A stretch of 43,220 bases of DNA from Marivirga sp. Lineage in GTDB: Bacteria > Bacteroidota > Bacteroidia > Cytophagales > Cyclobacteriaceae. Shown in pieces: positions 2,194 through 12,022 of this stretch. Below the pieces are notes generated by a model that was given only the letters and a program-made list of their open reading frames with translations, did no database searches and had not been told where the DNA came from. The translations under genes were made by a program, and so were the position numbers. Within the stretch, counting starts at the first letter, position 1. Each line of letters starts with the position of its first letter. The stretch lies in NCBI RefSeq assembly GCF_024636815.1, contig NZ_JAGXGF010000227.1, positions 1 through 43,220 on the forward strand, written 5' to 3'.

Positions 2194-2682
2194 ATGGCAT
2201 CAAATCTTAAAAATCTAAGCGAGCATTCAGGAAAAAACATGAAAGGATTGCAGAAAAAAAAGTTTGCAATCCTAGTTTCAGAATGGAATGAAGAAGTAAC
2301 TGAGTCATTATACAATGGCGCTTATGAAACATTGCTGGAAAACGGAATCCCAAAAGAAAATATCCAAAAGCATTATGTGCCAGGCAGTTTTGAATTAAGC
2401 TTAGGAGCACAATGGATGGCAGAAAGAAAAGAAATTGATGCTGTGATTTGCCTGGGTTGCGTAATTCAAGGAGAAACAAAACATTTTGATTTTATCTGTG
2501 ATGCAGTGGCTCACGGCATTACCAACGTCAGCCTAAAATATAACAAACCCGTTATTTTTGGTGTTCTGACTCCCAATACACAACAACAAGCTTTAGATAG
2601 AGCCGGAGGCAAGCATGGCAACAAAGGAGATGAAGCTGCATTTACCGCATTAAAAATGTTAGGATTAGCAAAAGGATTATGA
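2194..2682 (+). CDS. ribH: 6,7-dimethyl-8-ribityllumazine synthase
   Basis: Penultimate enzyme of riboflavin synthesis: condenses 5-amino-6-ribitylamino-uracil with 3,4-dihydroxy-2-butanone 4-phosphate. At 162 residues it has the family length plus a short N-terminal extension. Recognisable motifs are the substrate-binding YVPGSFELSLGA, the phosphate/ribityl segment CLGCVIQGETKHFDFI with the conserved GETxHF, and the C-terminal GVLTPNTQQQALDRAGG with KHGNKG, where the conserved histidine and lysine lie. It overlaps the following lysC by 4 nt (ATGA), so the two are translationally coupled, although no pathway link between riboflavin and aspartate metabolism is obvious. Confidence 0.97.
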   Translation: MASNLKNLSEHSGKNMKGLQKKKFAILVSEWNEEVTESLYNGAYETLLENGIPKENIQKHYVPGSFELSLGAQWMAERKEIDAVICLGCVIQGETKHFDFICDAVAHGITNVSLKYNKPVIFGVLTPNTQQQALDRAGGKHGNKGDEAAFTALKMLGLAKGL

Positions 2683-3656
2683 TTGTATTAAAATTTGGCG
2701 GGACTTCCGTAGGCACACCTCAAGGAATGAATCAGATTCGTGAAATCATCACGAAAGATAATAATAAGAAATTAGTAGTCCTTTCCGCTCTCAGTGGAGT
2801 GACCAATACTTTGGTGGAAATAGGCGAAAGACTGCGTAAAAAGGAGTATGAGCTTGCTCTTAAAGTCATCAAGAAGCTACAAAAGCGATATGATGAGTTT
2901 TTAGAAGAACTCTTTGAATCAGAATCTTTCAAAAATAAAGCATCAGCTATTATTTCTGAAAGCATGAACTTCATCAAATCATGTTTGGAAAAACCTTTTA
3001 CCAATTTGATTGATAAGGAGCTATTGGCTCAAGGGGAATTGATGTCCACCAATATTTTTAATTTGCATTTGCAAGAGCACGAATTAAATAGCGCCTTGAT
3101 CAATGCCTTGGATTTTGTAAGAACGGATGCTTTTTCAGAGCCAGATGAAGCTTTCATCAATAAAGAATTATCCGATATTTTAGTAAAGCAACCAGCTGAA
3201 ACTAATTTAATCATCACTCAAGGCTATATTTGCCGCAATGCGGAAGGCAATATTGACAATTTAAAAAGAGGAGGTAGTGATTATACAGCTTCTTTAGTTG
3301 GTGCGGCTCTAAATGCAGATGAAATCCAGATTTGGACGGATATTGATGGTATGCACAATAATGATCCAAGAGTGGTCGATAAAACTTTTAGCATTCCGCA
3401 GTTGTCATTTGAGGAAGCAGCCGAGTTGGCTTATTTTGGGGCAAAAATATTGCATCCTTCTTGTATCAGACCTGCACAGAAAAAAACCATTCCGGTACGT
3501 CTGAAAAACACCATGAAACCAGAAGCACCTGGCACTTTGATTCATACCAAAGAGGGTAGCGGGGAAGGCATCAAAGCCATTGCAGCCAAAGATGGTATAG
3601 TTGCTATCAAAATTAAATCTTTGCGAATGCTAATGGCTTATGGTTTCTTGAGATGA
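2679..3656 (+). CDS. lysC: Aspartate kinase, N-terminal part ending at an in-frame TGA
   Basis: First enzyme of the lysine/threonine/methionine pathway (phosphorylates aspartate). The 325-residue frame has the amino-acid-kinase start MIVLKFGGTSVG, the LSGVTNTL segment, the substrate/ATP motifs GGSDYTASLVGAAL and IWTDIDGMHNNDPR, and EAAELAYFGAKILHPSCIRP, so the kinase domain is complete. It then enters the first ACT domain (IAIKIKSLRMLMAYGFLR) and stops at TGA 3654-3656. The next codon onward, in the same frame, continues the expected ACT sequence (see the next entry), so this is one gene with a nonsense codon, not two genes by origin. Without the stop the product would be about 440 residues, normal for Bacteroidota monofunctional LysC. 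The kinase domain might still fold, but feedback control through ACT would be lost or split. Confidence 0.9.
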   Translation: MIVLKFGGTSVGTPQGMNQIREIITKDNNKKLVVLSALSGVTNTLVEIGERLRKKEYELALKVIKKLQKRYDEFLEELFESESFKNKASAIISESMNFIKSCLEKPFTNLIDKELLAQGELMSTNIFNLHLQEHELNSALINALDFVRTDAFSEPDEAFINKELSDILVKQPAETNLIITQGYICRNAEGNIDNLKRGGSDYTASLVGAALNADEIQIWTDIDGMHNNDPRVVDKTFSIPQLSFEEAAELAYFGAKILHPSCIRPAQKKTIPVRLKNTMKPEAPGTLIHTKEGSGEGIKAIAAKDGIVAIKIKSLRMLMAYGFLR

Positions 3657-3998
3657 GTGTTTGAAATTTTTGAGAAATATAAAACACCAATAGATGTAAT
3701 TACCACTTCTGAAGTTGCTATTTCTGTGACCATCGATAACATTTATTACTTGGACAGCATTTTAAGTGAATTACGCCCTTTCGGTGAAGTGGAAGTAGAT
3801 CAGGAGCAAAGTATCATCTGTTTAGTGGGCAATATGGTGGCTGAAAGACCAGGTTTGGTAAGCAAGATTTTTGCTTCACTGCAAGACGTTCCAGTGCGTA
3901 TGATTTCCTATGGTGGTAGCCGACATAATATCTCTATAGTAGTCGATACTCAGTACAAATCTGAGGCTTTGAAGAAGTTGAATGATGGGGTTTTTTGA
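3657..3998 (+). CDS. lysC: Aspartate kinase, C-terminal ACT-domain part (same frame, after TGA)
   Basis: About 113 residues carrying the rest of the regulatory region: (V)FEIFEKYKTPIDVITTSEV, AISVTIDN, then a second ACT repeat with VGNMVAERPGLVSKIFASL and VRMISYGGSRHNISIVV. It begins with GTG directly abutting the upstream TGA (TGAGTG), so a ribosome ending on the first part could in principle restart here and supply the ACT piece as a separate chain, as the natural beta subunit of Bacillus-type aspartate kinase II is made. Equally it may simply be the dead 3' half of a nonsense mutant, or the stop may be a sequencing error. It ends a short distance before a convergent ABC permease gene. Confidence 0.75.
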   Translation: MFEIFEKYKTPIDVITTSEVAISVTIDNIYYLDSILSELRPFGEVEVDQEQSIICLVGNMVAERPGLVSKIFASLQDVPVRMISYGGSRHNISIVVDTQYKSEALKKLNDGVF

Positions 3999-5355: not shown

Positions 5356-5438
5356 AAACCTGTCAGGTTTTAAAATATTAAAATCAAATATTTAAATATG
5401 AATATTGCTGCTTGAATCTGGCGAAACCTGACAGGTTT
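5356..5438. repeat. 83-bp element bounded by paired 15-bp palindromes (copy 2)
   Basis: AAACCTGTCAGGTTT at 5356-5370 and AAACCTGACAGGTTT at 5424-5438, the same termini, order and 68-bp offset as at 803-885, with an unrelated AT-rich 53-nt centre. It directly abuts the stop codon side of the following minus-strand gene (5439). Confidence 0.8.
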
Positions 5439-5675
5439 TTAAGAACCATCACTCAGCAATTTTTCTAACTTCACTTTATAAATAACCCCTTGCTCAAAAC
5501 AGCAAATTCCAGAATTAAATACTACCAAGGCAAAAGTTCCATAGTAAATCCAATTCCAGCCATCAGGATTTTGCATACGGTAAAAACCCGCATCTATTGT
5601 CAGGCTTAAACCTGCACCTATTAAAATTAAACCTAAAATTGAGAAAAATAACCATTTTTGCTTTATCGCCTGCAT
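5439..5675 (-). CDS. Small two-pass membrane protein of unknown function
   Basis: A 78-residue protein starting MQAIKQKWLFFSILGLILIGAG. Two hydrophobic segments are seen (about residues 8-27 and 45-63, YYGTFALVVFNSGICCFEQ), with a short polar tail. The ORF track extends it upstream to an F/L/N-rich 105-residue frame, but that extension comes from a poly-T tract; the ATG at 5675 is preferred because a diverged second copy of exactly this beginning (MQAIKQKWL) also starts there at 7771. I do not recognise the family. Its own 5' flank now belongs to the neighbouring cassette, so its original promoter may have been displaced. Confidence 0.65.
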   Translation of the reverse strand: MQAIKQKWLFFSILGLILIGAGLSLTIDAGFYRMQNPDGWNWIYYGTFALVVFNSGICCFEQGVIYKVKLEKLLSDGS

Positions 5676-5732
5676 GAGAAATATATTTTTTAAGGAGTTT
5701 AAATTTATTCCGTTTAAAAAAAATAAAAATAC

Positions 5733-5763
5733 TTGGTTTAAAAAAAAAAAAAACAACTACTTT
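5733..5763 (+). promoter_or_regulatory. Candidate promoter with a 14-nt poly-A tract in its spacer
   Basis: TTG at 5733-5735 and TACTTT at 5758-5763 are 22 nt apart, an acceptable spacing for a Bacteroidota promoter although the -7 lacks its final G. A run of 14 adenines (5740-5753) fills most of the spacer, so length changes in the run would change promoter spacing. Confidence 0.35.
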
Positions 5764-5790
5764 AATATTCATACCAAAAATTTAAACGTT

Positions 5791-6021
5791 ATGAAATTTA
5801 AAATCAAAAAAATTACTGTTCAATTTGTGATGTTAATCGCATGTATGTTTAGCTTTTACTACGCATATTCTTCTACCTCTATTTGTGTTGTGAGTTCTAA
5901 TTCTGATAATAATGTTGGTCATTGTCGGGAGCGGGCAGATGGAACAGGCGATGGTTGTTTCACAAGTGGTAGTGGTCCTGCTTGTGCTTACACTCAAATA
6001 ATTAAAACAATAGGTGGTTAA
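5791..6021 (+). CDS. Short secreted cysteine-containing peptide (NVEALA-like position)
   Basis: A 76-residue product with a signal peptide: MKFKIKKITVQFVMLIACMF, then FYYAYSS, giving a mature peptide of roughly 48 residues. The mature part is glycine- and polar-rich with four cysteines (SIC, GHC, DGC, PAC) and no long hydrophobic stretch. The ORF track start at 5674 is rejected because it runs through the poly-A tract. Small signal-peptide proteins beside DUF4221 / six-bladed-propeller lipoproteins are a known Bacteroidota arrangement (NVEALA family), but the NVEALA motif itself is not seen here, so the family is uncertain. It is followed by a hairpin, then by the propeller and CxxC lipoproteins. 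A ligand, bacteriocin-like or signalling role is only a guess. Confidence 0.6.
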   Translation: MKFKIKKITVQFVMLIACMFSFYYAYSSTSICVVSSNSDNNVGHCRERADGTGDGCFTSGSGPACAYTQIIKTIGG

Positions 6022-6027
6022 TTACAG

Positions 6028-6060
6028 GGTGTTACTTACAGAGTAACACCTTTTATTCTT
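6028..6060 (+). terminator. Hairpin/attenuator between peptide and propeller genes
   Basis: GGTGTTAC (6028-6035) and GTAACACC (6043-6050) form a perfect 8-bp stem with a 7-nt loop, followed by TTTTATTCTT and immediately the ATG of the propeller gene. A partial terminator here would make peptide mRNA more abundant than the downstream genes. Confidence 0.65.
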
Positions 6061-7230
6061 ATGAAATATATTATTATTACTTTGATAATTCTAGCCTCGT
6101 GCGATAGCAAAAAATCCGAAATATACTTTCAAGAGGTAAACGGACTGCAGTTTAAAGATAGCATTTTTTTAGAAGAAACAGGACTTATTTCACTTCATTT
6201 AGATAAGGAGACTAGCTTTAAACATGAATCAATTAAAAGTGTGGAAATTGACAATACGTCTTATTTATCCTTTATAAATGGATACAATCAACATTTTTAT
6301 TTATATAACTTAGAGACGCGGGAACTTCATAAAAAATTAAAATTAGAAAGAGAGGGACCCAATGGAATTGGAAATTTTACCTATGGCGACCACTTGTATT
6401 TAAATAGCGATAGCCTATTAATATATAATGGCTGGGAAGCAAGTCTGTATATTTTAAACAGTAAAGGAAATTTACTTTCGAAAAGCGAAATAGTAGATTT
6501 TTCAAAAAATCATAATTTGGTTTCTCCAGAGCCTTCGACAATGAAACCCATCAGAAAAGTTGGTGATTATGTGTTCATTCCATGTGGTATTGAGAAGTAT
6601 TTGACAGACTATTCAAATCAAAATTCTGTAATACGATATAACTTAAATACTAAAGAGATGGATTATATCATAAGTTTTCCAGATAACTATAACCAGGGCT
6701 ATTGGGGAGTGGCATTTAAATATAAAATGGGATTTGACTTCTATGACACAGATATAATTTCAAGTTTTCCTATTGAGAATTATATCTATCGCCATGATTC
6801 AGCTGGTAACTACCTTAACAAATATTATGTAGGTTCAAAGTACATTACACAATTTGAACCCTTCAAAGAAGATATAGATTATGGTGTAGAAAAAGACCAT
6901 TCAGTTCCAAATCCGCAACAAAGAGATCACGGCTTTTCAAATTCAGATTATACTACTATATTTTATGATGAATGGAGAGATTTGTTCTATCGAATTGCTT
7001 ACATCAGACCAAAGCAAGCTGAACTAGAAACGGAAGGAACGATCCCTGATTTTTCAGTGATTATTCTAAATTCCAATTTCGAAAAAGTGGGGGAGCAACT
7101 TTTTGATGGATTAAAATATCACCCCTCTATGATATTAGTTTCAAAGCAAGGCTTGTTGTTGGGAAGAAGTGATTTATATAAAGAAAACGAGGAACTTCTA
7201 AGTTTTTCTGTACTTAAAATCACAAAATGA
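6061..7230 (+). CDS. DUF4221-type six-bladed beta-propeller lipoprotein
   Basis: A 389-residue lipoprotein: signal peptide MKYIIITLIILASC with lipobox LASC, so it is lipid-anchored, in this phylum often on the outer membrane or cell surface. The body is rich in repeated beta-strand units (LYILNSKGNLLSKSEI, VIRYNLNTKEMDYIISFP, YIYRHDSAGNYLNKYYVG, TTIFYDEWRDLFYRIAYIRP) consistent with propeller blades; the pattern KLEREGPNGIGNFTYG, with its GPNGIG turn, is typical of DUF4221. Function in the family is unknown. It follows the secreted-peptide gene and overlaps the next gene by 4 nt (ATGA), so the three look like one unit. A receptor or scaffold for the peptide is an inference only. Confidence 0.78.
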   Translation: MKYIIITLIILASCDSKKSEIYFQEVNGLQFKDSIFLEETGLISLHLDKETSFKHESIKSVEIDNTSYLSFINGYNQHFYLYNLETRELHKKLKLEREGPNGIGNFTYGDHLYLNSDSLLIYNGWEASLYILNSKGNLLSKSEIVDFSKNHNLVSPEPSTMKPIRKVGDYVFIPCGIEKYLTDYSNQNSVIRYNLNTKEMDYIISFPDNYNQGYWGVAFKYKMGFDFYDTDIISSFPIENYIYRHDSAGNYLNKYYVGSKYITQFEPFKEDIDYGVEKDHSVPNPQQRDHGFSNSDYTTIFYDEWRDLFYRIAYIRPKQAELETEGTIPDFSVIILNSNFEKVGEQLFDGLKYHPSMILVSKQGLLLGRSDLYKENEELLSFSVLKITK

Positions 7231-7628
7231 AAATAGTTAAACTGTTATTTATTTTTATTCCAGTACTATTATTCAATTGTACGAATGAATTCAAATCCTT
7301 GGAAAATGAATTACTCAGTATTGATGAAGATATTTTAGACAGGGATTTAATCATTATTCCAAAAGAAGGCTGTACTGGATGTATCTTAAATGTTACGTAT
7401 TACGCAGAACAAAATATTGATAGTATAAATAAAAATGTATTATTTACTGTGATTCAAGATTTAAAATTATTCAGATTAAAAGTGGATTCAGCACTTTTAA
7501 ATCATAAACAGGTGTATATAGACGAAAAAAACGTAATCAAAAGCAGAAATATTGGAATTTATCCTGTTTTGATTGAAGCAAATAATGGAAAAATCATTTC
7601 TGTTAGTGAATTTTCAGTTCCTAATTAA
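7227..7628 (+). CDS. Small CxxC lipoprotein with a possible thioredoxin-like fold
   Basis: A 133-residue lipoprotein (signal MKIVKLLFIFIPVLLFNC, lipobox LFNC). The mature part has IIIPKEGCTGCILNV, with a Cys-x-x-Cys about where thioredoxins have it, followed by strand-like VLFTVIQD and later GIYPVLIEANNG, which resembles the cis-proline strand and turn of a thioredoxin fold. That reading is an inference from motif order; the protein is shorter than a standard TlpA or DsbA. It is coupled to the propeller gene by an ATGA overlap. The peptide upstream carries four cysteines, so a disulfide-handling role on that peptide is an attractive but untested idea. Confidence 0.65.
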   Translation: MKIVKLLFIFIPVLLFNCTNEFKSLENELLSIDEDILDRDLIIIPKEGCTGCILNVTYYAEQNIDSINKNVLFTVIQDLKLFRLKVDSALLNHKQVYIDEKNVIKSRNIGIYPVLIEANNGKIISVSEFSVPN

Positions 7629-7666
7629 CCATAAGTACAATTTATAGTAACCAGTTGAGCTGAATG

Positions 7667-7700
7667 TAAAAACCTATGTTAATTATACAATTGGTTTTTA
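7667..7700 (+). terminator. Weak hairpin at the end of the cassette
   Basis: TAAAAACC (7667-7674) and GGTTTTTA (7693-7700) can pair around an 18-nt loop. It lacks a following T run, so termination is uncertain. Confidence 0.3.
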
Positions 7701-7717
7701 TACAATAATAATCAAGT

Positions 7718-7771
7718 TCAAATCAACCCCAGAATTGAGATAATTAACCACTTTTGCTTTATCGCCTGCAT
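7718..7771 (-). pseudogene. Truncated, diverged copy of the 78-aa membrane protein gene start
   Basis: Read on the minus strand from 7771 this gives MQAIKQKWLIISILGLI then TGA, matching 15 of the first 17 residues of the gene at 5675 (MQAIKQKWLFFSILGLI). The DNA differs at about 7 of 51 positions, most of them third codon positions, so the fragment descends from a gene that had been under coding selection, not from a very recent copy. It stands at the far end of the peptide/propeller/CxxC cassette and in the same orientation as the intact gene. Confidence 0.75.
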
Positions 7772-7785
7772 GACATATGTAACAT

Positions 7786-7854: not shown

Positions 7855-9894
7855 ATGAGATATTTAGTTTACAGCCTACTTTTAGTGGGTTTATTTTTGC
7901 AAAACACTTTTGCCCAAGTGATTAAACCCATCAGTTGGGAAAGCTCCATTTTAGAAGAAAACTTAGAAGTAGGTGATACAGCTACGTTATCCTTCCGAGC
8001 TGAAATTGATGAAAATTGGTATTTATACTCATCAGATTTTGATCCAGATTTGGGGCCTATGCTTACTGAATTCGAATTTGAAGAGGAGGATTCATACCAA
8101 TTAGTGGATAGTCTCATTCCCATCAACCCCTCTAAAGGTTATGACGAGATTTGGGAAGGGAATTATACTTACTTTAAGAAGAAAGGGGAGTTCCAACAAA
8201 AAGTAATCATTAAAGAGATTCCTTTTAAGATAGAAACCAGCAATAGTTATCAAGTCTGTTCTGATGTAGACGGGAAATGTATTCCTTTCAGTGATGATTT
8301 CTCATTTGGAGATAAAACGAAATCTGCTAATAGCGGAGCTGGACAAGATAAAAAAGAAAAAGCATCAGCAGATAAATCAGAAAAAGGAGGCAAAAAAATA
8401 ATTGACCTTCAGCAGCAGGATTCCAACTCTCCGTATTCACTTTTAGGCTTTATGGTGGTGGCTTTTTTGGCTGGCTTAGCTGCTTTATTGACACCTTGTG
8501 TTTTCCCTATGATTCCGATGACGGTTACCTTCTTTACTGGAAAAGCGAAATCGAGGGCTGGCGCCATTCGTCAAGCCGTGATTTACGGAATTTCAATTAT
8601 TGTGATTTATGTGATAGCGGGAACCATTATAGCCGTTATCAATGGTCCTGAATTTGCCAATTGGCTGAGTACCCACTGGATTCCCAATGTCTTTTTCTTT
8701 TTAGTATTCTTTATTTTTGCCTTATCATTTCTGGGGCTGTTTGAAATCAATTTGCCTTCAAGCTTTGTCAATAAAGTAGATGCCAAAGCCGACAAAGGCG
8801 GCTTAGGCGGTGTTTTCTTTATGGCTTTCACTTTGGTTTTAGTTTCTTTTAGCTGTACTGGCCCAATCGTAGGAAGTATTTTGGTAGAATCAGCTGGAGG
8901 CATGGTGATCAAACCGCTTTTGGGCATGTTTGCTTTTAGTTTAGCTTTTGCTATTCCATTTACGCTCTTTGCCATTTTCCCTGAGTGGTTGAATAATTTG
9001 CCAAAATCAGGTGGCTGGTTGAATTCTGTAAAAGTAGTTTTAGGATTCCTAGAATTGGCACTAGGATTGAAATTCTTGAGCATAGCCGACCAGGTTTATC
9101 ATTGGGGAATATTAGACAGAGACATATATTTAGTGCTTTGGATTGTGATTTTCGCTTTCTTAGGATTATATCTTTTAGGAAAGCTCAGATTACCGGGTGA
9201 CAGCCCAATAGAGAAATTATCAGTGGGAAGATTGATGCTCAGCATTATTACATTTAGCTTCGTTTTATATATGATTCCAGGCTTATTTGGAGCCCCATTA
9301 AAAGCGCTCTCTGGTTACCTTCCGCCAATGAGTTCTCACGATTTTGATTTACCAACTCTTATTCGAGAAAATAGTGGAGGCTCAGGAGCAATAAGTGACG
9401 AAGACCAAATTTGCGAAGAGCCTAAATATGGAGATATGCTGCATTTTCCACACGGAATAAGAGGCTATTTCGATTATGAACAAGCCTTAGCCTGTGCAAA
9501 AGAACAAGGTAAACCTATTTTCGTGGATTTCACGGGTCATGGTTGTGTAAACTGCCGTGAAATGGAAGCTAGAGTTTGGTCTGATCCCAAAGTGCTAAGT
9601 CGTTTAAAAAATGATTATGTGATGCTAGCCTTATATGTAGATGAAAAAACTGAATTGCCCGAAAAGGATTGGTACACTAGCGAATATGATGGAAAGGTAA
9701 AAAAATCGATTGGTAAGCAAAATGCTGATTTTCAGATTACTCGATTCAATAATAATGCACAGCCCTATTATGTTCTCCTGGATACAAATGGTGAACTATT
9801 GGTAGAACCAATTGCATATGAAAGAAGCATTAGCAAATTTGTTGATTTTCTAGAAGAAGGAAAAGAAAAGTTCGAAGCTAAAAACAAGCCTTAA
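7855..9894 (+). CDS. dsbD: Thiol:disulfide interchange protein DsbD
   Basis: A 679-residue inner-membrane electron carrier that moves reducing power from cytoplasmic thioredoxin to periplasmic thiols. Order: signal peptide (MRYLVYSLLLVGLFLQNTFA), N-terminal periplasmic DsbD-alpha-like domain (about 25-150) with cysteines in SYQVCSDVDGKCIPF, a charged linker, a membrane domain from about 195 with the redox pair in ALLTPCVFPMIPMT and VSFSCTGPIVGSIL, and a C-terminal thioredoxin domain with FTGHGCVNCREMEARVW (CVNC). All three cysteine pairs are therefore present. Its N-terminus lies just downstream of the CxxC lipoprotein cassette; a functional link is possible but dsbD is a general housekeeping gene. 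The stop codon touches a 274-bp TIR element. Confidence 0.95.
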   Translation: MRYLVYSLLLVGLFLQNTFAQVIKPISWESSILEENLEVGDTATLSFRAEIDENWYLYSSDFDPDLGPMLTEFEFEEEDSYQLVDSLIPINPSKGYDEIWEGNYTYFKKKGEFQQKVIIKEIPFKIETSNSYQVCSDVDGKCIPFSDDFSFGDKTKSANSGAGQDKKEKASADKSEKGGKKIIDLQQQDSNSPYSLLGFMVVAFLAGLAALLTPCVFPMIPMTVTFFTGKAKSRAGAIRQAVIYGISIIVIYVIAGTIIAVINGPEFANWLSTHWIPNVFFFLVFFIFALSFLGLFEINLPSSFVNKVDAKADKGGLGGVFFMAFTLVLVSFSCTGPIVGSILVESAGGMVIKPLLGMFAFSLAFAIPFTLFAIFPEWLNNLPKSGGWLNSVKVVLGFLELALGLKFLSIADQVYHWGILDRDIYLVLWIVIFAFLGLYLLGKLRLPGDSPIEKLSVGRLMLSIITFSFVLYMIPGLFGAPLKALSGYLPPMSSHDFDLPTLIRENSGGSGAISDEDQICEEPKYGDMLHFPHGIRGYFDYEQALACAKEQGKPIFVDFTGHGCVNCREMEARVWSDPKVLSRLKNDYVMLALYVDEKTELPEKDWYTSEYDGKVKKSIGKQNADFQITRFNNNAQPYYVLLDTNGELLVEPIAYERSISKFVDFLEEGKEKFEAKNKP

Positions 9895-10225: not shown

Positions 10226-12022
10226 ATGGCAAAAAGAAGAAAAAGCGAACCGCTTAAAGAGGAAGAGAAAAAGCCACTCAACAAAGAAAATTTTAAAAAG
10301 CTTACGGGAGTATTCCAATTCATAAAACCCTATAAAGGCTATTTCATAGCGGGGTTATTTTTCTTGTTAATTTCCAGTACTACCCTTCTGGGGTTTCCTT
10401 ATGTAATGGGAAAACTGGTGGATGTGGCACAGGGGAAAACATCTGGTATTTTTACAGAACTCAATACAGTAGCATTTATCCTGATTGGAATATTAGCTGT
10501 TCAAAGCTTCTTTTCATTTTTCAGAGTTTATCTCTTTGCTCAAGTAAGTGAAAGAGCGATGGCCGATATGCGTGCCAAGCTTTATACTAAACTGATGAGC
10601 TTACCCATGACCTTTTACGATAAAAGTAGAGTGGGCGAATTGGTAAGTCGAATCACATCTGATGTTTCGCTATTGCAAGATACTTTTTCAGTAACATTAG
10701 CAGAATTTATCAGGCAAGTATCTACTTTGATCATAGGAGCCGCTATAATCTTTTATTTCACTCCCAAGTTGGCATTGTTCATGATTGCTACCTTTCCAAT
10801 ACTGGTTATTGCTGCTATGATTTTCGGAAAGTTTATCCGTAAGCTTTCCAAAAAAACACAATCGGAATTAGCTTCAGCAAACGTCATAGTGGAAGAAACT
10901 TTACAATCCATAAATATTGTTAAATCTTTTACAAGTGAGCTAATTGAAGTAATGCGTTATCGTAAATCCCTCGATAAAGTAGTAAAAGTAGCTTTGAAAT
11001 CAGCCACCTATAGAGGTGCATTTATCTCCTTCATTATTTTCGCTATGTTTGGTGGAATAGTGGCCGTTTTATGGTATGGTGCCAGCTTAGTGCAAGAAGG
11101 AAGCATGAGTGTGGGTGATTTATTAAGCTTTGTTCTTTATACTACTTTTATTGGTGGTTCAATTGCAGGTTTGGGTGATTTATATGGTCAAATTCAAAAA
11201 GCTATTGGTGCTTCTGAGAGAGTGATGGAAATATTACAGGAAGAGGAAGAGTTTAAGATAGAAGAGAAAGAGAAAATACATTTACAAGGAGCAATACGCT
11301 TTGAAGATGTTAACTTCTCTTATCCGACACGGAAGGATGTGCAAGTATTAAAAGGTTTGAATTTAACAGTTGGAGCTGGAGAAAAAGTTGCCTTAGTAGG
11401 TCATAGTGGTGCAGGGAAATCAACGATAATTCAGTTGTTAATGCGTTTTTATCCTTTAGCTTCTGGTAAAATTAAAGTGGATGATCAAAATATCGATTCT
11501 TTATCAATCACGGGCTACAGACAAAATATTGGAATAGTCCCTCAGGAAATCATACTGTTTGGGGGGTCAATCCGTGAAAATATAGCTTATGGAAAACCTG
11601 AAGCAACGGATGAAGAAATAATAGAGGCTGCTGTAAAGGCTAATGCCTGGTTATTTATTAAAGATTTTCCGGAAGGATTGGAAACCTTAGTGGGTGAAAG
11701 AGGCGTTAAATTATCTGGAGGTCAAAGGCAAAGAATAGCAATAGCAAGGGCCATACTGAAAGATCCAAAAATTTTAATTTTGGATGAAGCAACCTCCTCT
11801 TTGGATGCAGAATCGGAGAACCTGGTGCAACAAGCACTGGATGCGCTTATGAAAGACAGAACAACCATTATTATTGCACATCGTTTGGCAACTATCCGTA
11901 AAGTGGACAAGATTTTTGTGCTAAAGGAAGGACGAATTTCTGAGGAGGGCTCACATCAAGAACTTTTAGAATCAGAAAATGGAACATACAGTAACTTGGT
12001 AAAATTGCAATTACAAGACTAA
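10226..12022 (+). CDS. ABC exporter, fused membrane and ATPase domains (MsbA-like)
   Basis: A 598-residue half-transporter. A lysine/glutamate-rich N-terminus precedes six membrane segments (about residues 40-310) with the coupling-helix region DKSRVGELVSRITSDV, then an ATPase domain with Walker A GHSGAGKST, Q-loop NIGIVPQEIILFGGS, signature LSGGQRQRIAIAR, Walker B ILILDEATSSLD and switch IIIAHRLAT, so it should be an active homodimer. The directly abutting acyltransferase of the LpxL family (no intergenic base) suggests lipid A precursor flipping, as for MsbA, but peptide or drug export by this broad family cannot be excluded. Confidence 0.92.
   Translation: MAKRRKSEPLKEEEKKPLNKENFKKLTGVFQFIKPYKGYFIAGLFFLLISSTTLLGFPYVMGKLVDVAQGKTSGIFTELNTVAFILIGILAVQSFFSFFRVYLFAQVSERAMADMRAKLYTKLMSLPMTFYDKSRVGELVSRITSDVSLLQDTFSVTLAEFIRQVSTLIIGAAIIFYFTPKLALFMIATFPILVIAAMIFGKFIRKLSKKTQSELASANVIVEETLQSINIVKSFTSELIEVMRYRKSLDKVVKVALKSATYRGAFISFIIFAMFGGIVAVLWYGASLVQEGSMSVGDLLSFVLYTTFIGGSIAGLGDLYGQIQKAIGASERVMEILQEEEEFKIEEKEKIHLQGAIRFEDVNFSYPTRKDVQVLKGLNLTVGAGEKVALVGHSGAGKSTIIQLLMRFYPLASGKIKVDDQNIDSLSITGYRQNIGIVPQEIILFGGSIRENIAYGKPEATDEEIIEAAVKANAWLFIKDFPEGLETLVGERGVKLSGGQRQRIAIARAILKDPKILILDEATSSLDAESENLVQQALDALMKDRTTIIIAHRLATIRKVDKIFVLKEGRISEEGSHQELLESENGTYSNLVKLQLQD

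Follow-up and report, generated by a model that had tools for sequence, protein, structure and literature searches.

A recurrent cassette of a cysteine-rich exported peptide, a DUF4221 propeller lipoprotein and a CxxC lipoprotein in Marivirga

Organization of the locus

The window, that is, the stretch of DNA analyzed here, is the whole 43,220-base contig C84 of a 4.0-Mb Marivirga draft genome. The genus-level comparison included ten Marivirga genomes, the window's own and nine others, one of which (G009) matches Marivirga arenosa ABR2-2 (Marivirgaceae, Cytophagales). The locus consists of the following features:

5439 to 5675, minus strand: flanking gene for a 78-aa membrane protein; the insertion lies between it and its ancestral divergent promoter region
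5621 to 5685: left flanking repeat (65-bp direct repeat), the 5' end of the intact 78-aa gene
5791 to 6021, plus strand: Cys-rich exported peptide, 76 aa, four mature cysteines
6026 to 6052, plus strand: terminator/attenuator-like hairpin (MFE -14.5 kcal/mol, z -5.2), then TTTTATTCTT
6061 to 7230, plus strand: DUF4221 beta-propeller lipoprotein, 389 aa
7227 to 7628, plus strand: CxxC lipoprotein, 133 aa, thioredoxin-like by profile
7717 to 7781: right flanking repeat, a truncated stub of the 78-aa gene's 5' end, joined to the native dsbD intergenic region
7855 to 9894, plus strand: flanking dsbD-type thiol:disulfide interchange gene, an ancestral neighbor outside the cassette

The original prediction described a signal-peptide microprotein with four mature cysteines, a propeller lipoprotein and a lipoprotein with a CTGC motif and a YPV strand, and all three genes are present, including the ATGA overlap between the last two. 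The start given for the unit, position 5676, coincides with the edge of the minus-strand neighbor's start codon and lies outside the peptide gene. Farther upstream in the window, an aspartokinase-like frame (2679 to 3998, plus strand) is broken by an in-frame stop at about 3654 to 3656, giving 325 aa and then 113 aa in one frame; this is either a pseudogene or an assembly error.

The three proteins

The peptide has a Cys pattern shared with the peptides of other cassettes. Its cysteines (positions 32, 45, 56 and 65) are all downstream of the hydrophobic signal. The motif LIAC within this signal resembles a lipobox, so that this copy may be cleaved by either signal peptidase I or signal peptidase II. 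An alignment of 21 cassette peptides showed a common signal sequence and Cys pattern, with a mean column identity of 21% and C-x(3-4)-G-x-x-C as the best-conserved part; none of the cassette peptides matched a Pfam or NCBIfam family above the cut-off. NVEALA peptides are small exported peptides of Bacteroidota that are said to adjoin propellers, and the peptide had been linked to this family in the original prediction. The likeness ends there: none of the 21 peptides matches the NVEALA profile (PF14055), even at an E-value of 5, and the family has no match anywhere in the window's genome, so we rejected this identity. Membership in a defense system was likewise rejected, a PADLOC search having yielded no match. 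In another Marivirga genome (G001, L180:1523-2715), three similar Cys-rich peptide genes are arranged in tandem upstream of a single DUF4221-CxxC pair.

The 389-aa protein, with the lipobox ILASC, is a clear DUF4221 member (PF13970, E-value 9.7e-26; score 91.5 bits, cut-off 23.4; model positions 3 to 310 of 311). Its propeller fold, suspected previously, is borne out by the match to the structure of BVU_1028 from Bacteroides vulgatus (PDB 3s9j) at the sequence level (phmmer E-value 4.3e-14) and by comparison of this structure with the predicted model, which is of medium confidence (pLDDT 60; Foldseek TMq 0.72).

The 133-aa lipoprotein likely adopts a thioredoxin-like fold, as far as profiles can tell. 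In nine homologs, C49, C52 and P113 are invariant, the last being a cis-Pro-type proline downstream of the CxxC motif. The PDB profile matches of the family are mainly thioredoxin folds, the best E-values being 5e-4 (8t4c) and 0.0048 (3eur), and an hhalign comparison with a TlpA-type set gave a probability of 91%, partly over the lipobox region. The TlpA/thioredoxin-like oxidoreductases (for example, 2lrn, 3hcz, 3eur and 8t4c) share with this family the CxxC motif, the later conserved proline and weak but consistent profile matches, whereas the cassette protein is short and lipid-anchored, lacks a Trp before the CxxC and, in its window copy, matches no Pfam family, TlpA and Redoxin included, at E-values up to 1. 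An AlphaFold2 model (pLDDT 41, from an alignment of two sequences) was discarded.

Insertion between two conserved divergent genes

In eight of the nine other Marivirga genomes, dsbD and the 78-aa gene are divergent neighbors with 82 to 84 bp between them; in the window, this distance is 2179 bp. The 78-aa gene was not found in G002 among the ten genomes compared, and dsbD is present in all ten. Given the short spacing in the eight relatives, the repeat-marked boundary marks an insertion. Acquisition of the cassette, suspected from its AT-richness and from a gene-fragment boundary, accordingly finds support on several counts: the cassette has a GC content of about 30%, compared to 36 to 39% in the surroundings; the boundary is real and corresponds to the direct repeat derived from the 5' end of the 78-aa gene; and the insert, bracketed by these repeats, occupies a site that is empty in eight relatives. 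The two repeat copies are 83% identical over 65 bp and in direct orientation. Compared with the closest relatives, the left copy is identical at 51 to 53 of 54 bases and the stub at 44 to 46, which fits either drift of the stub since the insertion or a more distant donor. We considered dsbD as a functional member of the cassette and rejected it as an ancestral neighbor in all ten genomes. A perfect 15-bp inverted repeat (AAACCTGTCAGGTTT and AAACCTGACAGGTTT, 53 nt apart; window positions 5356 to 5438) is located in the gap between the DUF427 gene and the 78-aa gene, and similar sequences occur near the same place in relatives.

Flanking direct repeats are not peculiar to the window: they surround 11 of the 22 cassettes with usable flanks compared to 3 of 64 control genes, and 2 of these 3 controls are themselves cassette propellers. 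The repeat is a piece of a neighboring gene (65 to 342 bp, 81 to 93% identical) in the window, in C44 of the same genome together with its decayed counterpart in G007, in G001 (RND locus and C24) and in G133; the C44 and G007 cases share one site and are therefore not independent. In the arrays of G009 and G168, the repeats may stem from tandem duplication of cassettes. No transposase or integrase gene was found within the cassette, and the repeat pattern fits integration via homology with a neighboring gene carried on the donor DNA. At L154 (genus g51), the 5' end of an RND adaptor gene recurs on the far side of a peptide-propeller cassette as a 342-bp copy with 81% identity (8890 to 9231 and 10887 to 11228).

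Recurrence in Marivirga and related genera

The window's genome encodes ten DUF4221 proteins, six of them with a peptide gene upstream. The window, C44 and C122 carry full peptide-DUF4221-CxxC cassettes with an overlapping CxxC gene, and contigs C189, C212 and C242 carry peptide-DUF4221 pairs; many cassettes are without the CxxC gene. Single cassettes and arrays are found in other Marivirga genomes, and the joint occurrence of the three genes, which the original prediction had proposed as a check, extends to further Marivirga species and to two other genera. A propeller-only scan of genome contigs found nothing, and with a more closely related alignment as the query, matches came from M. arenosa only.

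Across the surveyed loci, a peptide gene lies within 260 bp upstream of 18 of the 126 DUF4221 genes and of 4 of the 329 other genes (Fisher p about 1e-7); the loci were picked for holding DUF4221 genes, so that these counts describe neighborhoods rather than genome-wide frequency. Three of the four exceptions are other propeller-type genes. Conversely, 108 of the 126 DUF4221 genes have no upstream peptide, which implies other roles for the propeller family. Most of the surveyed genes, in a family-wide list made up mainly of high-scoring copies, belong to peptide-less tandem arrays, and the window's propeller represents the peptide-linked subset. Ten homologs of the CxxC protein were detected in the genus at E-values below 1e-15, of which six, taken from cassettes, had served to build the profile itself; all four non-seed homologs (one of them the ortholog of a seed) lie in peptide-DUF4221 cassettes, as do homologs in genera g50 and g51. 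In several more distant families, CxxC homologs were found by inspection beside propeller-type lipoproteins; further homologs are ordinary thioredoxin-like proteins.

Several sites recur. One is in the RND-efflux locus, with an adaptor/RND pair on one side and a second RND gene on the other; of the eight genomes with this locus, seven carry a Cys-peptide cassette there, and G003 is empty. The window's genome, G001, G006, G007 and G009 have peptide-DUF4221, with or without CxxC, at this site, and in G004 and G005 the Cys-peptide is accompanied by Porph_ging proteins and a TonB-receptor-like barrel. In these two genomes (L183:6451-10976 and L182:742-5322, respectively), the peptide is a different Cys-rich one; downstream of it are a pair of related exported proteins, of which the first matches Porph_ging, and the 880-aa barrel. 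In genera g50 and g51, related cassettes adjoin RND or adaptor genes, one adaptor gene being partly duplicated; ATP-synthase genes adjoin cassettes in g50 and likewise at C44 in the window's genome.

A shared hairpin and joint exchange of peptide and propeller

A stable hairpin (z below -2) directly follows the peptide stop codon in 20 of the 22 cassettes (mean z -4.4), compared to 17 of 94 control gaps that lie between co-directional genes and are similar in length (mean z -0.8), and the sequences of the cassette hairpins are unrelated to one another. We infer that the hairpin is an attenuator and that it thereby favors the peptide as the main product.

The components appear to be inherited together. 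Among twelve complete triples, two non-syntenic pairs (C122 with C34 of G001, and G004 with G006b) show similarity across all three genes. Pearson Mantel tests on the twelve triples gave p-values of 0.0006 or less, a result that hinges on these two pairs. The rank Mantel test for peptide versus DUF4221 gave a p-value of 0.03, or 0.15 without the syntenic ortholog; for peptide versus CxxC, it was not significant among the same triples, nor was an earlier rank test of peptide versus propeller on 17 pairs (p = 0.10). In the RND-efflux locus (L067, L068 and L120), between G006 and M. arenosa, the peptide gene (dS 0.49) and propeller codons 1 to 250 (dS 0.3 to 0.9) form a divergent block, the remainder of the locus being near-identical (dS 0 to 0.07). 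Such a block within a near-identical locus shows joint exchange of the peptide and two thirds of the propeller between species. Within the exchanged block, dN is 0.24 for the mature peptide versus 0.015 for the signal.

Possible functions of the cassette

Taken as a whole, the cassette looks like a transferable system of a secreted peptide and its partner. In the model that we put forward, at roughly even odds, a horizontally acquired cassette yields a peptide that the hairpin renders abundant, the lipoproteins being low-level read-through products. The peptide would be exported by Sec, would form its disulfides with assistance from the CxxC lipoprotein and would be bound specifically by the propeller encoded beside it, which could serve as a receptor or in self-protection. 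Cassettes would spread between related species by recombination in neighboring genes, leaving partial gene duplications behind. Maturation by the CxxC protein and reception by the propeller, as in the original prediction, are the most likely roles, judging from co-inheritance, operon anatomy and analogy with bacteroidetocins.

In bacteroidetocin loci, which encode peptide toxins of Bacteroidales, a four-Cys peptide is paired with a thiol oxidoreductase required for full activity (PMC6671954), and the oxidoreductase step proposed here follows this precedent. The two systems have in common a short exported four-Cys peptide and a thiol oxidoreductase, actual or putative, in a compact locus. Bacteroidetocins, however, have a GG leader and a peptidase-containing ABC transporter, whereas the cassette peptide has a Sec-type signal, and no such transporter gene was found in the cassette. 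Furthermore, the putative oxidoreductase of the cassette is a lipoprotein, a propeller lipoprotein is added, and the cassette is not known to have toxin activity.

A bolder and tentative extension of the model is that Cytophagales possess a polymorphic system of peptides and partners not described before, in which an abundant disulfide-containing peptide is recognized only by its own propeller and cassettes are swapped at hot spots (the RND efflux locus and the ATP-synthase and SLC13 neighborhoods), leaving partial copies of neighboring genes and strain-specific repertoires. If so, strains carry different recognition or antagonism repertoires. Our literature searches found no paper naming DUF4221 or NVEALA and nothing usable on cysteine-rich peptide/propeller systems, Marivirga bacteriocins or lantibiotic stem-loop read-through.

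The readings differ mainly in the part given to the partner, namely, immunity, receptor or capture. We tentatively place antagonism first; it is a sharper form of the main model, in which the peptide is a narrow-spectrum bacteriocin, the propeller and/or the CxxC lipoprotein confers immunity, and polymorphism with exchange reflects an arms race. The variable mature peptide, the several different cassettes per genome, the hot spot whose occupants differ from species to species, the excess of peptide favored by the hairpin and the bacteroidetocin-like combination of four-Cys peptides and an oxidoreductase all point in this direction. Nevertheless, antagonism is possible rather than probable, given the Sec signal with neither a dedicated exporter nor a GG leader, the lack of matches to known bacteriocin families above the cut-off, and a mature-peptide dN/dS of 0.5 rather than above 1. 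Signaling or kin recognition, with an autocrine peptide sensed by the surface propeller, draws on the peptide-propeller linkage, on their joint exchange and on the common use of propellers as ligand-binding folds, but the cassette includes no regulator or transmembrane signal transducer, and we regard this reading as unlikely.

Capture of a nutrient or cofactor appears somewhat less likely still. Here, the peptide would be an exported binding module (for example, for metal via its cysteines) and the propeller a BtuG-like surface lipoprotein. The weaker Foldseek matches of the propeller include the B12-binding surface lipoprotein BT2095 of Bacteroides, but the TMq of 0.41 is no higher than for many propellers; in two species, the occupant of the shared hot spot is a Cys-peptide together with Porph_ging proteins and a TonB-receptor-like barrel, yet the DUF4221 cassettes come without a TonB transporter, and sequence variability is unexpected in a metal-binding module. 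Lipoproteins and small exported open reading frames are common in Bacteroidota, so that unrelated AT-rich lipoprotein genes might come together by chance. The recurrence statistics, the CxxC neighborhoods, the shared hairpin and the matching triples at different places make this explanation highly improbable.

For DUF4221, a family known by structure rather than by function, the peptide-partner model gives one subset a testable ligand-partner question, based on a specific secreted peptide, joint exchange, a dedicated putative oxidoreductase and a hairpin that the operons have in common. Should the peptides act on other cells, the cassettes of these marine Bacteroidota would define a new class of exported peptide systems. 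Distant DUF4221 homologs are located on two Phocaeicola plasmids and in one unclassified phage record. The latter, an unannotated "Bacteriophage sp." entry of 8.3 kb that stems from human feces (MT836891.1:3727-4662), encodes a homolog with 27% identity (E-value 3e-15).
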